Below are positions 7,140 through 64,000 of a DNA stretch of 64,000 bases, piece by piece. The DNA is from Paratrimastix pyriformis. Lineage: Eukaryota > Preaxostyla > Paratrimastigidae. A program made the translations under genes and the position numbers. Location of the stretch: positions 213,501 through 277,500 of the forward strand of contig JAPMOS010000005.1 in NCBI GenBank assembly GCA_027972325.1, given 5' to 3'. Below the pieces are notes generated by a model. The model was not told the origin of the DNA, ran no database searches, and saw only the letters and a program-made list of their open reading frames with translations. Every line of letters begins with the position of its first letter. Position 1 is the first letter of the stretch.

Positions 7140-7522
7140 ATGTCCCCTCCATTTTCCGGAACAGTTGGCAATTCCAACCCGCCCGCCTCTCCTCCGTCTT
7201 CGTCGTCGGGATCGGCCTCTCCTCCATCTTCTGCATCTCCCACCACCACTCCGACTCGGCACTCCTCAAAGCGCCAGCCGCGTTCCTCTCGCTTCACATG
7301 GCGCCCTCCTGCCAAGGAAGGCGCTGCTGCTGAGCGGCAGGCCACACCCTCCTCCCCTCCTCCTCCTCTTTCGCCTGTCCAGCCGATATCCCCCGCGGCG
7401 GAGCAGACGGCATCCCCGGCGGCCGAGTTGGCCTCGGCCGTGGGGTCGCTGAGTCTCGGCGAGTTACCAAGACCCACGAGCGCGGTCTGTCGTGGTCCAG
7501 CCCACTCGGCCTCCTCCTCCTC

Positions 7523-7553
<31 letters not shown>

Positions 7554-10500
7554 CTCTGCCTCTGCCTCTGCCTCTGCCTCTCGGGGTCTGCTCACTGGTT
7601 CCCCTTCTTGTGCCTGTCGGGTCATCGCGTGGTGTCTGCGCGCCCACCCCAGAGCCGCTCGGGGATCTACAAGTACAGCCTCGAGTTCCTCCGCCAGTTC
7701 CGCACGGTCCGTCCCCCGCCCGGTCATCCTCTGCCTCATCATCATCTCCCTCCCACACTCCGTCGCTGCCCCCCCCCCCCCCCCCCGGCCAGACCTGCAC
7801 ACGCAAGCCCGCGGATATGAACATGCCCAAGTACCCCACCTACCCCATTGTCGGCCAGGCCTCCCCGGCCCGCGCCACCTCGCGCAGCCCCACCCGCATG
7901 GTCTGTCTTCAGACCCCCGGCTCGTGGCATGGGCATGGGCATGGGCATGGGCACTTGGGCATGGTCGATCCAACCGCCCCGCCTTCATGATCTCCCTTCG
8001 TGGTCGGTGTGTCCGTTCTTCCTGCCGTAGAACATCCCCCACGCCTCGCCGTCCCGGTCACCCTCACGCTCGCCCGTCCGCAGCCAGCCCCTGGTCCTCG
8101 TCCAGGGCGAGGTCCGCCTGCCCTCCCACTGCCCGCCCCTCCCACCCCTACGTCCCGCCTCTCCTGACAGCCATCCTTGTGTTGGGGCATGCAGAGCATC
8201 CTGGCCTGGCAGTCGCGGCATGCGGTGACCCCCGTCGAGCCGCTGCAGCTCGCGCTGGCCCGCCAGCGGCTGACCATCGAACGGCTGACCGCCGATCGGA
8301 TCGACCAGACCGCCGCGGCCCTCTGCCAGGCCCTCACCAGGTCCCGCCACGCTCCCTCTCGCGCCCTCCGGCCGACACGACGCACACAAACCATACAGAC
8401 CATACAGACCAGACAGACCAGACAGAATACAGACCATACAGACCATACAGACCATACAGACCATACAGGGCAGGACACCTTTCATCCGATTTGGCCTCAT
8501 TCCGCCCTCGCTTTCCCCCCTTTTTTTTGCGCCCGCGCGGCCCTTGGTGCAGCCCCGAGCTCGTCACGGGGACGGCCGACCTGGTGGTGGAGCGGGCCCT
8601 GCTGGCGCCCCACCAAGCGGGCCTGCTGGCCTCGCTGGCGCTGCTCATGTCTACGGCCGCCCTGCCCTGCACGTGCCCCTGCCCGACCCCGGGCTCCCCC
8701 TGCTGCCCGGCGACCCCCAACTCGCCCGTGGTGACGACCCTGCCCATGATCGCCCAGGACTCCCCGATCATGGTGGGCCCGGCGCCCACCGTCTACACCC
8801 CCCCGCCCGTTATCACCGCCCTGCCCGCCCTGAGCATGGCCGGCCCGGGGCCCACCAGCGCCATGTCGCCCCCGAGCCCCGTCAAGACGGCCCGCTCGCC
8901 CCTGCTGCCCCTGCCCGCCACGCCCCCGCCGCCGGCCCGGTCGCCCCGCAGCAGCCCGCTGAACACGCCCACCCGGTCGCCCGCCTCGCCGGCAACCTCG
9001 GCCTCGTCCTTCTCGCCCAGCGCCCTCCTGGCGGCCCTGTCGCCCTCGTCCCCCGTGTGCGGCCCCCAGAACGTCTGCTGGCCACACAGACACAGAAAAC
9101 ACAGACCGGACACCGGACACCCGGACACACACCGGACACACCGCATGGCCCTTTTCTGTCCGACACAGACCCGTTCCGCACCATACCGGGGCACCATACA
9201 CGCACACACCAGGGCATCATACACAGACACCGGCCGGGGCACCATGCACACACCGGCCGGGGCAATATTTCCGCTCGCTCACCTGCCCTTCCCTTTGCAG
9301 GATTTCCGCCGGCTGTTGGTGAACCGTGTGGAGCGGGAGTACAAGCGGGGCTACAGCCCCGAGCAGGGCCTCTCCCTGACCGAGCGGACCAGCCTGCCCC
9401 CCGAGGAGAAGGACCGCCACGCCCTGGCCGTCAAGCGCCGCTACCTCGCCAGTCCGTAGCCCCCCCCCCCCCCCCCCCCCAGGGACCCTGCGGCTTTGAT
9501 GAGGACGGGGTTCAGGCCACTGCTAGTGCCCCAATTTTTCTTTCCCCCCCCCCCCCCCCCCCGCCGAATGCGGCCTCGTTTCTTTTCTTTGCCCAACCCC
9601 CACGCCTTTGCTCACCCGCACTGTGTCTTTCGTTCGGGTGTGTGTGTGTGTGTGCTGTGGGATTCTTGCAGAGGTTCGCTTGATCGGGGAGCTCTTCCTC
9701 AGGGGCCTCGTGGCCCGGCGCACCGTCCACGCGATCCTGATCGACCTGCTCAGTCTGCTCAGGCCCACTCTCCGCTCCTCTCCGCTCATCCCATCTCATA
9801 CCCATCACGCACCCATCACGCACCCATCACATGCCCCATGTTTCAAGCATCACATGCCCATCACATACAGACCCATCCCATACCCTTCACATGTCCACTC
9901 CATGCCCATCGCATGCCCATCGCATGCCCATCCTGATCATCCTCCTTCCCCCCTGCCTCCGCCCAAAGCGACCGACGTGGACCAGCCCGACGCCCCGCTG
10001 GAGCGTGTCGAGGCGGCCTGCGTGCTGCTGGCCGTGGCGGGCGAGCGGATCGACGGGCCCCAGACGGCCCGCCACATGCGCAGCTACATGCGCCGCCTCG
10101 ACCAGTGGGCCGCCGCCCCCAAGATGCCCGCCGCCCTGCTGGCTTGCATCGCGGTCCGCAGATGCTCCCTCGCACCTCGTCCCGGCCACCACCACCCACC
10201 CACCACCCACCACCATCCCGTGCGCGCGCACGGACGGCACAGAACGACACCCGGTGCGCAGTAGATGTCTGACACATCATCATCATCATCATCATCATCC
10301 AGCTGCCACCATCCCACCATCATCATCACCACCCTGTCGGTTTGCGGTCTCTCCACAGGAGGTGAAGGCCCTCCGCGAGCGCAGCTGGGCCCCCGCCGCC
10401 ACCCCGTCCGTGCTCTTCGGCGCCTCCGGTCCCGACGCCCCCGCCGCCGCCGAGCCGCCCGCCACCGAGCCCGAGCGGACGGTGGCCCAGTTCATGGCCA

Positions 10501-12955
10501 CCCGGGACGTGGGCCAGGCCCTGGCGGCCGTGGTGCTGGTCCGGGAGGAGATGCTGGCCGGCCCCCAGGGCCCCCACGTCTTCGCGGGCTGCATGCGGCG
10601 CCTGGTGGGCGGCCTGCTGACAGAGGCCCTGGTCCACGAGGGCGGCATGCATCTGGACAGCGCCCTCTGCCTGCTGGTGGATCTGTTCGCCCACGGGCTG
10701 GCCCCGACGGGCGCCTTCCTGAAGGGGTCTGCTCGCCCCACCCTGCCCACATTCCCCCTGCCCGCATTCCCCCCTGCCCACATTCCCCCCTGCCCGCGTA
10801 CCGGGGACCGCGACCACCCACTGCCCCTGCCCCTGCCCCTGCCCCTGCCCCTGCCCCTGCCCCTGCCCCTGCCCCTGCCCCTGCCCCTGCCCCTGCCCCT
10901 GCCCCTGCCCTGCCCCTGCCCTGCCCCTGCCCCTGCCCCTGCCCCTGCCCCTGCCCCTGCCCCTGCCCCCATCATCACCAACATTTCCCCACTCACCTCA
11001 CCCGGATGTCGCTCCTCCCTCCCTGGGCTTCCCTCGCCCCTGGCGCAGGCTGGGCCGGCTGATGGACGAGTACAACGCCCTTGCCGCGGGTCACCCGCAG
11101 CTGCCGGGGCTCCTGGGGACGGCCCTGGGGGTCCTGGTGGCCAACCGGGTGATCCCCCTCGCCAGCGCGGCCACCTTTGACCTGACCAAGAGCGTCCACA
11201 CCATCCCGGCCATGTTCAAGGTCCGCCCAAGCACCCAAGGCACCCAGACGCCTCGTCCAGAATCGACAACATGAAAGACCAGCTCACCAGCTCCCCAAAT
11301 TTGCACCCACCTGCTCACGGAACGGAACGGAACTGACCTCAACCGAACAACTCAACTCACGGAACTCAACCGAACTCACGGAACTGAACTGACCTCAACC
11401 GAACGGAACGGAACTGATCGACTCCCCGCTTCTCCTGCCCCCAACCTCACTCGACTCGCGTCTCTCTGCGCTCTGGGGTGGGGATGGGGTCGGCCCAGGC
11501 GATGGAGGGCGAGGTGGTCCGGGGCCGGGAGGACGTGCTGACCATCCTGCGCGCCTCGGACTTCGACCTGGTGGGCCTCATGCTCCCCTGGGTCCAGACC
11601 GCAGGCATCGTGGCCTTCTTCGCGGGCGTGGTCCGCCCTTCCCACCGCCCGGCCCACCTTTCCTCACGCCCCTCCTGCCTTCCTCACGCCCGGCCCACAT
11701 TCCTCACGCCCCTCCTGCCTCCCTCACGCCCCTCCTGCCTTCCTCACGCCCCTCCTGCCTTCCTCACGGCCCTCCTGCCTTCCTCACCACCTCACCCCCC
11801 CCCCCCGTCCTCCCTTTCATACATTCCCTGTCGGCATCCCCACCACCGTCCTCATCCCCCTCCCGCGGCTCCCGTCTCATGTTCTTGTCCCGTCCCCCCC
11901 CCCCCCCCCCCCCCCGGCGCAGGGCCTCGAGTGGGTCTACTACTGCGCGGCCGAGAAGTACCTGGCCCAGTTCCTGCTGCGCCCCGTGGGCAAGCCCTCT
12001 TCGGGGAGCAGATCAGGCGGATCCACCCCAGCCCGCCTGCGCCCCATGTGCGCCACCGCCCTGCGGGCCTCCTCAAGGCGGCCCTGGATAAGTGCGGCCC
12101 CGGTCTGCGCTCCCCATCCCCCACACGCTTGCCCCCCCACCACCACCACCACCACCACCACCACCACCACCACCACCACCACCACCACCACCGGGCCATT
12201 CCAATACCGAAACGACGGCATTGTCCCGCATTGCTCTTGTTTGATGCCACGACCTCCCAGGGTTGGGAATGGGGTCCTTTGCGCGCCTGCTGCCTTCATT
12301 GGGAGCAAAGCAATAACAATCATCGTCCCTGGGCCGTATTTCAATCATCGCCCCTCCCTGTCTCAGTATCGCCAAATGTCCCTCCCATCTTCACCCGTTT
12401 TCCCGGCCCGGCTCCTGCCCCTGCCTGCCGCACCCCCAGGGAACATTGGGGGCGTGCTCTACCAGCTGGACCAGTACGTGAGCGCCCTGCGGGACCTGGT
12501 GGCCCACCAGCCGTCCCCCATGCACAGCTGCCTCGACGCCATCGCCGACTTCTGCGCGGCCCACCGCTACCCGCGAGGTCCGTCACCTGATCCCCACTAT
12601 GGCCCTATGGCCCGATGGTCCCATGCCCCTATGGCCCCATCATCTCATCATCTCATCATCTAACCCTGCAGAGCTGCTGACGGGCCTCTTCCGGTGGATC
12701 CGCGACCGGGACGTCTGCACGGCGGGTGCCTTCCACACCTGGACGGAGGCGCCCCTGACCCTGCGCGACCGGGCCGTGGCCCGGGTGGCCGCCCTGAACT
12801 ACCTCGCCTCCGCCGCCACGGGGGGCCCCGCCTCGCCCGCCCGCCGGTCATCCCCAACACGCAAGCAGGCCGGCTCCCCCGCCAAGGGCCCCGCAAGCCC
12901 GCCAGCCACACCCCCACAGGCACCCGCGGCCCCGCTCGCCACCCCAACCCAGTAA
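7140..12955 (+). CDS. EIF4G: Translation initiation factor eIF4G (MIF4G, MA3 and W2 domains)
   Basis: Cap-complex scaffold that binds eIF4E and eIF4A. Fourteen exons were traced: 7140-7484, 7653-7706, 7793-7900, 8195-8340, 8553-9072, 9301-9451, 9672-9752, 9969-10153, 10359-10726, 11049-11220, 11499-11630, 11923-12102, 12440-12577, 12672-12955. Exon 2 is an eIF4E-binding motif (KYSLEFLRQF; compare YxxxxL). Exons 4-9 form the MIF4G domain: SILAWQSRHAVTP, DFRRLLVNRVEREY, IGELFLRGLV, ALRERSW. Exons 9-12 resemble MA3, and exons 13-14 end in a W2-type tail (LFRWIRDRDVCTAGAFHTW). A Pro/Ser-rich insert (about 170 residues) interrupts MIF4G in exon 5. All joins keep phase except exon 12, where one base seems to be missing near 11980. 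The first 115 residues are low-complexity. The MIF4G assignment is firm; the MA3 boundaries are approximate. Confidence 0.85.
7519..7580 (+). repeat. CTCTGC hexamer array in eIF4G intron 1
   Basis: About nine tandem TGCCTC/CTCTGC units inside the first traced intron, beginning soon after donor GTCTGT (7485). Confidence 0.85.
8385..8467 (+). repeat. CATACAGAC minisatellite in an eIF4G intron
   Basis: Tandem 9-10 bp units (CATACAGAC, with CAGACAGAC variants) between the exons ending at 8340 and starting at 8553. Confidence 0.8.
10816..10970 (+). repeat. CCCCTG hexamer array in an eIF4G intron
   Basis: About 25 near-perfect CCCCTG units in the intron between the exons ending at 10726 and starting at 11049. 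Two units are shortened to CCCTG. An ORF encoding Pro-Ala or Gly-Arg repeats through it is an artefact. Confidence 0.9.
12139..12192 (+). repeat. CAC triplet array in an eIF4G intron
   Basis: Tandem CAC/ACC triplets in the intron that starts at GTCTGC (12103). Confidence 0.85.
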
Positions 12956-27957: not shown

Positions 27958-30006
27958 TCAGCCCCCCATAACGCCGCCCCCCACTCGCAGCCCCAGGCAG
28001 CCCAGCCAAAGGAGGAAAAGCAGGGGGGGATGCAGACCAGGTGGCATGAACCCGCCGGGTGGAGGAGGCGGGGGGTGGAACCCACCCATGGGGGGCATCC
28101 ACCCGCCCGGCCCGCCGAAGCCGCCCGGAGGGGCACCGGGGAAGCCGCCAGGGGCGGGGCCGCCGAAGCCGCCGAAGCCGGGCGGGGGCGGCGGGGCGCC
28201 GCCGAAGCCACCGGGGGCAGGAGCGCCGCCGAAGCCGCCAAAGGCGGGCGGGGCGGCGGCCGGGGGTGGCGGGGCGGGGGCGGTGCCCGTACGTGGGCGG
28301 ACGTCGGCCTCGAGGACGGGCCGGATGTAGATTGTGTCTGGCGGGTGGCTGTGCGAGGCAAGGGGGAGGCAGGGGGAGGGGAAGCAGAAGAACAAAGGAG
28401 GGGCCGGTGAGCAACGGGGTGTTGTCTTGTGTCGTGTCGTGTCAGAGTGTTGTGGAGGGCTGAGCAGACTCCATGTCGCCCTGCTCGAAGGTGTACGAGG
28501 AGGCGATCGCCAGCAGAGAGCCGTCGTTGCTGAAGGCGCACGAGCTGATGCTGCAAGGGGGGCGAGTGCCAGAGGACAACCGACGGCGGCGGGTGGGGGC
28601 GTGGTGAGAACGACATCATCGGGGTGGGGGGATGGGGGATGGAGATGACCGAAGGGGGGGCGCGCGGACCTGGTGGGAAACCGCTGGAACTGGCAGAGGC
28701 GCTTCTTGTTGACGGGGTCCCAGATGTTCACCACCGCGTCGCAACCGCCCGTGGCGAAGGTGCCGTACCTTGATAAGGAAAGGGGAGTTGGGATGGGGTT
28801 GGGGTTGGGTGGGGTGGGGGTGGCGCGGACTGGGGATGGAAGGCCAGCGCGTTGACGGGGTACACGTGGTCGACGCCATCCTGGTTGACGCGGTGACACT
28901 TGAAGGCGTACTTGCGGGCCTGCGAGGCCGGGCTGGGGTCGAAGAACTCGATGGCCACGCGGCCCTCGATGCTGCTCAGGGCGTACCCTGGGGGAGGGGG
29001 GGAGGGGGGGAGGGAGGAGGGGAGACGGGAATGAGCGGGGAGGGAGACAGAAGGGAGGCCCGTATATTTTGACCGGATTCCGCGGGGTGGTTCTGGAGCA
29101 CCTCCCACATGGGGGGCGTGGGGCGTGGTAGGGCGTGTGGGCATCCAGACCGGTGCCGTCGGGGAAGGCCTTGATGGCGCGGGTCTGATACTTCAGGGAG
29201 GACTCGCGGGACTGCTCGGGCTCGGACTGCCACAACGAACCAGAGGAATCGTTCGATGCGCGGGATGAGGAGGACAGACCATTTGACGGAGGTCATAAAT
29301 CAAAATATGCCGGCCGGCAGTGCCCACGACCACGCGATCGCCCGAGATCGTCATGGTAAAAACTTTCTCGGGGAGGTCATGTTTGCTGACAGCCCCCTTT
29401 GCCCGGTAGTCCCAAATTTTAAGGGAGCGGTCCCAAGAACCCGAAACAACAATGCCTGAGGTCGCAATCAGATCGAGCACCGCGTGTGCCAACGAGTGTC
29501 CGAGTCACAAACCATGCACAGACACGAAGATGTATGAGTATCCGAGCCCAAGAAGAGGATGGGTGACACAGACCCCGAGCCTCGTTGAACTCCACCGAAC
29601 GAACGGCCTTATCGTGCGAACCCAGAATGGATTCCTGCCCAGAGGTGAACTCATACCTGATCCCGGAATGTGTATGGAGAGGACTACAAGAAAACACAGA
29701 CATTTTCACAGTCTTATCCACACTGCCCGAAAAAGCCATAGTGTCATCCCCAAAACAGCAGTCCAGGACACCAGCCTTGTGATAATACCTCGATTTCAGA
29801 GTGTTCGAAGCCACATCATAGAGCCGGACACCCTAGCGAGGGGTGATAACGGGAAATACACGGAAAAAGAACGAAGGGTTGGCCGAAAAAATACAAAAAA
29901 TGCGGACTGAATCCCATGAAGAAACCAGAAGCAAATTCTGGGTCTTTGCAAATCTGACGGTTGTAATACCGTCGGCAGGAGGGTGCGCAAGTTGGAATTG
30001 CGACAT
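27958..30006 (-). CDS. BUB3: BUB3-like WD40 mitotic checkpoint protein with Gly/Pro-rich tail
   Basis: A seven-bladed WD40 propeller of the spindle checkpoint that docks BUB1/BUBR1 at kinetochores. The ATG at 30006 opens with [19 protein letters not shown]. Later exons give [81 protein letters not shown] and [15 protein letters not shown]. The [12 protein letters not shown] and NKKRLCQF segments favour BUB3 over its relative RAE1. Exons lie near 30006-29911, 29832-29695, 29670-29590, 29485-29285, 29230-29150, 28988-28835, 28768-28676, 28545-28460 and 28350-27958. BUB3 usually stops soon after the last blade, but here a tail of about 110 residues rich in GFGG and PPP runs to the stop at 27958. 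It is divergent from PUS10. Confidence 0.85.

Positions 30007-43458: not shown

Positions 43459-64000
<20,542 letters not shown>

Follow-up and report, generated by a model that had tools for sequence, protein, structure and literature searches.

A changed 5' splice site consensus in Paratrimastix pyriformis and a U1 snRNA 5' end that appears to match it

Which 5' splice site is used by Paratrimastix pyriformis, and which RNA would read it? The question is raised by a window of 64,000 nucleotides (the whole stretch of DNA that was analysed, contig JAPMOS010000005.1, C441:213501-277500), in which the introns of a gene for an eIF4G-like protein open with GTCYGY. An earlier note, made from the letters of this window, had proposed that such donors are the rule and that they call for a compensating change in U1 small nuclear RNA (snRNA) or for heavier reliance on U6 and U5. 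The whole assembly (G000, 56.06 Mb in 495 contigs) was searched. It is very probable that the major (U2-type) spliceosome of this organism recognizes 5' splice sites by an altered code, and that the 5' end of U1 has co-evolved to match it.

Fourteen introns were traced by hand in the eIF4G gene. The earlier note had listed 13; their donor hexamers follow one another as listed from 7485 to 12578 and all 13 introns stand, but one with donor GTCCGC at 8112 had been missed. GTCYGY dominates as claimed, with 13 of the 14 donors, the sole exception being GTCCCG. With splicing at these donors the reading frame is maintained as far as a frameshift in the exon at 11923-12102, beyond which the last two junctions fit the shifted frame; the product resembles eIF4G and contains a MIF4G domain (PF02854, E = 3e-12). 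The same donor had been said to recur in a minus-strand gene at about 28349-29907, presumably BUB3 (the name used in the earlier note), and 7 of the 8 donors of this gene are indeed GTCYGY.

A second set of introns was obtained with no prior on the motif. It stems from a whole-genome search for the CCT chaperonin and kinesin families, in which adjacent exon blocks delimit each intron, and covers all eight CCT genes with neighbouring blocks and only two kinesin genes. Out of 45 adjacent exon-block pairs, nine were dropped (profile gap >8 or span >600 bases) and four had no candidate, which left 32 introns. Expectation-maximization (EM) was run with GT, AG, the reading frame and the profile spacing as its requirements. 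All 14 starts (12 random, one seeded with GTAAGT and one with GTCTGT) converged on the donor AAG/GTCTGT, where the slash is the exon-intron boundary, and on the acceptor CAG. GTCYGY is present in 23 of the 32 introns and GTRAGT in none; the other donors, GTCAGT, GTCCGA, GTCTGG, GTCCGG, GTTGGA, GTATAT, GTTTGT, GTCGGC and GTCTTT, occur once each.

Junctions were compared with solved structures, leaving aside the CCT gene C28 because of stops in its spliced translation. No gap was found at the junctions of a kinesin part (three junctions) or at three of the four junctions of a CCT theta part, the fourth having one-residue gaps beside it. At a distance from its traced junctions, CCT theta (L049) has an insertion of 16 residues relative to its solved homologues, which corresponds to 48 bases running from GTCTGT to CAG without a stop. 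This stretch, which is outside the pooled introns, is most likely a read-through intron and as such a blind check of the motif. Short in-frame introns of this kind, free of stops, would escape frame-based tracing.

The EM set was pooled with the introns of eIF4G (14), BUB3 (8), SNRNP27K (2), WBP4 (1) and U1C (1, donor side only), to give 58 donors spread over 14 contigs. The last two names are presumptive: the first zf-U1 match (C86) was rejected as U1C, as it looks like WBP4, and is taken to be that gene; the exon fragment of the second match (C68), YCDYCDVFLTHDS, fits U1C and is assumed to belong to it. GTCYGY accounts for 46 of the 58 donors, against 720 of 21,200 GT (3.4%) sampled on both strands of the window and of 20 fetched stretches (binomial P ~1.6e-56). 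GTRAGT, whose dominance in such a matrix had been named as the outcome that would contradict a changed donor, accounts for 0 of 58, against 1.5% of the sampled GT. As the earlier note had stated, positions +3 and +4 are pyrimidines and the G at +5 is kept: C stands at +3 and G at +5 in 55 of 58 donors each, and 54 donors have a pyrimidine at +4 (T 34, C 20, G 3, A 1). Position +6 is C in 26, T in 25, G in 5 and A in 2, and -1 is G in 46.

The intron ends are GT (58/58) and AG (57/57) by construction, other ends not having been allowed; the 57 acceptors are CAG (42), TAG (11) and AAG (4). U12-type introns have the donor [AG]TATCCTT, and the start GTATCC was found in 0 of the 58 donors, AT donors being excluded by construction. 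The branch-point motif CTNAY is present in 20 of 55 introns, versus 10 for the reversed control, and no consensus is claimed. A count of k-mers over 212 kb gave no clear enrichment of GGTCTGT and its kin and is no evidence either way (observed versus expected: GGTCTGT 61 vs 70.5, GGTCTGC 72 vs 58.5, GGTCCGT 65 vs 65.1, GGTCCGC 88 vs 77.2, GGTAAGT 1 vs 1.8).

The Rfam U1 model matches eight loci, each over model positions 1-166 (E = 1.1e-12 to 5.6e-10). All eight start with ATACAGACCTTGCTTGG, whereas the Rfam consensus starts with AUACUUACCUGG, and all carry AUACAGACCUU at the position of the consensus AUACUUACCUG. The compensating change foreseen in U1 is thus present in the DNA: nucleotides 5-6 are AG instead of UU and face +4 and +3, and nucleotide 11 is U instead of G and faces -3. 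The usual 5' end ACUUACC is replaced by ACAGACC in 8 of 8 loci, and the RNA is predicted to start with AUACAGACC. AUACAGACCUU is exactly complementary to AAG/GUCUGUAU; its reverse complement, AAGGUCUGUAU, equals the EM consensus at 9 of 9 positions from -3 to +6. Positions +7 and +8 of the donors do not follow the U1 sequence. One exact pattern, the canonical U1 end with GATCA 8-20 bases further on, gave 0 matches in 56 Mb. A looser pattern, ATACAGACCTN{8,25}GATCA, hit at least 120 stretches on viral contigs; it was too loose and nothing was drawn from it.

Upstream of the U1 loci (L001-L008, -75 to -1), the columns common to all eight include a run of T near -70, CC at -59/-58, A at -54 and AATTC from -5 to -1, and the flanks are otherwise unlike. 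Such shared blocks resemble the promoter of an snRNA gene and would be expected if the genes work. The fold of the RNA beats 200 of 200 shuffles (z = -3.4). In the isolated fold (L001:1501-1656) nucleotides 4-8 pair with the Sm region, so that the new 5' end may become accessible only upon Sm binding. The lowest-scoring copy (L008:1501-1657), in which the likely Sm region reads AGAAUG and not AUAAUG, is possibly decaying.

The fit of the 58 donors to this U1 was compared with their fit to canonical U1. Over positions -3 to +6 the mean number of Watson-Crick pairs is 6.45 versus 4.84, the count being better for 50 donors, equal for 7 and worse for 1. By duplex energy, 57 donors are better and one is worse, with means of -8.8 and -3.7 kcal/mol, respectively. 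When all 16 pairs of letters are placed at nucleotides 5-6 of U1, AG ranks first by Watson-Crick pairs. The proposed scheme is that the donor consensus became AAG/GUCUGU, with frequent C at +4 and +6, and that the three substitutions in U1 made it an exact Watson-Crick complement from -3 to +6; U1 would then bind the donor in the usual register before handing it over to the ACAGA box of U6.

The other snRNAs examined are unchanged in their recognition motifs. U6 carries AUACAGAGA in 4 of 4 loci, with its ACAGAGA box intact; U2 carries GUGUAGUA, with GUAGUA kept, in the two loci read letter by letter out of 10; U5 carries CGCCUUUUACUA, with loop 1 kept, in the two read out of 7. Heavier reliance on U6 and U5 may hold as well, as the donor pairs better with U6; it would then stem from the donor, U6 itself being unaltered. 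What the earlier prediction did not include is that nucleotides 1-7 of the new U1, AUACAGA, are identical to the stretch of U6 that holds ACAGA. The donor UCUGU (+2 to +6) complements ACAGA in both RNAs, so that a single donor could be fully paired by either and form the same five pairs with each; the C at +3 would pair with a G of U6 inside the spliceosome. That U1 has come to duplicate the recognition sequence of U6, one donor forming the same helix with U1 and then with U6, is a tentative extension, rather more apt to be wrong than right. If it is correct, the usual compromise, in which +3 and +4 suit U1 but not U6, would end, and transfer would be an exchange between two identical guides. 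As the substrate core of METTL16 is UACAGA, U1 itself may in that case have become a METTL16 substrate.

Several points weigh against a U1 that co-evolved with the donors. The U1 matches score 50.8 to 60.2 bits, below the Rfam gathering score of 69.5, and other copies may exist because only 41 of 992 first-look candidates were scored. The exon positions fit weakly (A at -3 in 20/58 and at -2 in 23/58), and pairing ends at +6, with A at +7 in only 10/58. In terms of duplex energy, GG comes first among the 16 and AG second. The C at +4 in 20/58 and at +6 in 26/58 are A-C mismatches with U1. The motif was known when 26 of the 58 donors (eIF4G, BUB3, SNRNP27K, WBP4 and U1C) were hand-picked. Lastly, the expression of the U1 loci and the splice junctions are predicted from the DNA.

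A shift driven by U6, and not by U1, is a rival explanation. Pairing with U6 would have been limiting and donors would have drifted to UCUGU, U1 having followed or mattering little. All five ACAGA positions of U6 are matched by 14 of the 58 donors, with a mean of 3.9 of 5, and no trade-off is seen between exon-side and intron-side pairing (rho = 0.01). One review takes the view that commitment happens chiefly at the hand-over to U6, and mentions that C. merolae splices without U1 (PMC11732430). However, all 4 U6 loci are unaltered whereas all 8 U1 loci found have changed, and a U1 of little importance would have no reason to agree with the donor consensus over -3 to +6. This explanation is possible but unlikely.

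The C at +4 and +6 could also reflect modification of A3 and A5 of U1, or of their U6 partners, for instance to inosine, so that U and C both pair. Where the base is not T, C is more frequent at both positions than intron bodies would lead one to expect (20/24 at +4 and 26/33 at +6, P = 0.004 each). A tolerated A-C wobble, which is the plain reading, explains the C unaided, and modification is considered improbable.

It is more doubtful still that loss of METTL16 or SNRNP27K moved +4 from A to U, the change in U1 being incidental. A gene with a Methyltransf_10 exon containing NPPFF (Pfam E = 8.8e-15; L043, G000:C332:38824-39153) is taken to be METTL16, and an SNRNP27 domain is present (E = 3.5e-24), spanning an intron. 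As both genes seem present, their loss is most likely not the cause of the +4 change. The predominance of U or C at +4 would suit this explanation, and in yeasts the loss of these genes is a known correlate of +4U, with U1 and U6 invariant (PMC10581693); but it leaves the C at +3 unexplained, and the yeast U1 did not change. The METTL16-like gene is kept although A is found at +4 in only 1 of 58 donors. Since m6A:U (N6-methyladenosine-uridine) pairs tend to be unfavourable (PMC11732430), U6 is predicted to be poorly methylated, or the METTL16-like enzyme to serve other RNAs. In the SNRNP27K gene (L065, minus strand) an intron donor reads GTCGGG, among the weakest seen.

That composition alone, C-rich introns in a GC-rich genome, placed pyrimidines at +3, +4 and +6 is scarcely credible, for although C makes up 42% and T 24% of intron bodies and the k-mer count gave no excess, +3 is C and +5 G in nearly all donors, the pyrimidine count drops to 39 at +7 and 42 at +8, GTCYGY has a chance share of only 3.4%, and the matching U1 would be left unexplained unless the eight loci are pseudogenes.

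Table 1. Introns traced in the eIF4G and BUB3 genes, and a donor in the EGF-like giant gene (window positions)
Feature	Position	Strand	Donor	Remark
eIF4G intron 1	7485..7652	+	GTCTGT	
eIF4G intron 2	7707..7792	+	GTCCGT	
eIF4G intron 3	7901..8030	+	GTCTGT	
eIF4G intron 4	8112..8194	+	GTCCGC	absent from the earlier list
eIF4G intron 5	8341..8552	+	GTCCCG	exception
eIF4G intron 6	9073..9300	+	GTCTGC	
eIF4G intron 7	9452..9671	+	GTCCGT	within MIF4G domain
eIF4G intron 8	9753..9968	+	GTCTGC	acceptor AAG
eIF4G intron 9	10154..10358	+	GTCCGC	
eIF4G intron 10	10727..11048	+	GTCTGC	
eIF4G intron 11	11221..11498	+	GTCCGC	
eIF4G intron 12	11631..11922	+	GTCCGC	
eIF4G intron 13	12103..12439	+	GTCTGC	frame after the frameshift in exon 11923-12102
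eIF4G intron 14	12578..12671	+	GTCCGT	same shifted frame as intron 13
BUB3 intron 1	29833..29907	-	GTCCGC	
BUB3 intron 2	29657..29701	-	GTCTGT	alternative in-frame donor 29695
BUB3 intron 3	29456..29573	-	GTCTGT	alternative in-frame donor 29567
BUB3 intron 4	29227..29279	-	GTCTGT	acceptor is one of four in-frame options
BUB3 intron 5	28988..29150	-	GTCTGG	
BUB3 intron 6	28769..28830	-	GTCCGC	
BUB3 intron 7	28551..28669	-	GTCCGC	
BUB3 intron 8	28349..28469	-	GTCTGC	
EGF-like giant gene donor after CSGHGS	56893..56898	-	GTCTGT	outside the 58

Some features of these genes are reported for completeness. The frameshift in eIF4G is a sequencing error, a real frameshift or a small unmodelled feature. 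The exon preceding intron 2 contains YSLEFLRQF, presumably an eIF4E-binding-like motif, and introns of the gene carry simple repeats on the coding strand, such as (CCCCTG)n and (GCCTCT)n, at about 10820-10970 and 7520-7585. Two BUB3 introns have a second in-frame GT (GTTTTC and GTCACC) that is not taken. The best solved match of the joined BUB3 protein is an mRNA export factor (E = 1.3e-54, residues 4-305 of 320), and yeast Bub3 is matched with E = 1.3e-32 over residues 4-296. The minus strand of 43000-64000 holds EGF-like surface-protein genes with CSGHG motifs ending at 56898 and 61532, their exons being separated by long ATG/CAT-type repeats. The donor reported there after CSGHGS is GTCTGT as stated, but lies at 56898 and not at 56909. 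Elsewhere in the genome, an EF-1A fragment (L194) has an unusual NQDPKTGENKPFLG stretch and is without the 12-residue insertion of human EF-1A (also implied by yeast spans), an insertion that is a mark of opisthokonts. The genome is therefore probably not from an opisthokont, and Fonticula, considered as a candidate source, was rejected on this ground.

Few eukaryotic RNA sequences are as conserved as the 5' end of U1. With such conservation, and with thousands of donors that must change together, a switch looks nearly impossible; yet in this genome, judged from its sequence, a switch of the U1/donor code appears to have been completed in nature. The literature searched, which included few subscription journals and no bioRxiv, gave no report of a U1 whose 5' end had naturally changed to fit the donors of a whole genome. 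Such a system allows tests of how a spliceosome moves between codes, of the respective weight of U1 and U6 pairing, and of whether METTL16 and SNRNP27K still act without A at +4. Gene finders trained on GTRAGT, and Rfam U1 cut-offs, would fail on such a genome.

ACUUACC is invariant in the 236 U1 candidates found in a set of 240 yeasts and outgroups (227 of 230 Saccharomycotina, 9 of 10 outgroups; PMC10581693), and ACUUAC is present in the U1 of Giardia (PMC3510501) and of the Guillardia nucleomorph (PMC6461891). The P. pyriformis system shares with this canonical helix the register from -3 to +6, a full-length match to the U1 model and the motifs of U6, U2 and U5 in the loci read; it differs by having ACAGACC. 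The fitting of an altered U1 5' end to a non-consensus donor is known from engineered or suppressor U1, where it was demonstrated by compensatory mutation (PMC11732430), whereas here the alteration is natural, concerns 8 of 8 loci and matches the donor consensus of a genome sample.

The tunicate Fritillaria borealis, with mostly non-GT/AG introns, likewise shows a genome-wide departure of its donors. In that species the U1 5' end, the U6 ACAGAGA and the U5 loop 1 are strictly conserved, and changes of U2AF and m6A are proposed (PMC13326754); in contrast, U1 is changed here, for introns traced with GT/AG ends by construction. The switches from A to U at +4 in Saccharomycotina resemble the present case by U or C at +4 with G at +5, UGU facing the ACA of U6. 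A change of pseudouridine 5 to A in U1 was regarded as a conceivable compensation that was not found in yeasts (PMC10581693). Here, A is present at nucleotide 5 and the METTL16-like gene is kept. Finally, U1 snRNA has been reported absent from Entamoeba, Amoebophrya and Cyanidioschyzon (PMC13292270, PMC7789003, PMC11732430). As in those organisms, U1 escapes standard searches in P. pyriformis, but it is present, below the Rfam cut-off; some of the reported absences might hide similar divergence and deserve a second look.

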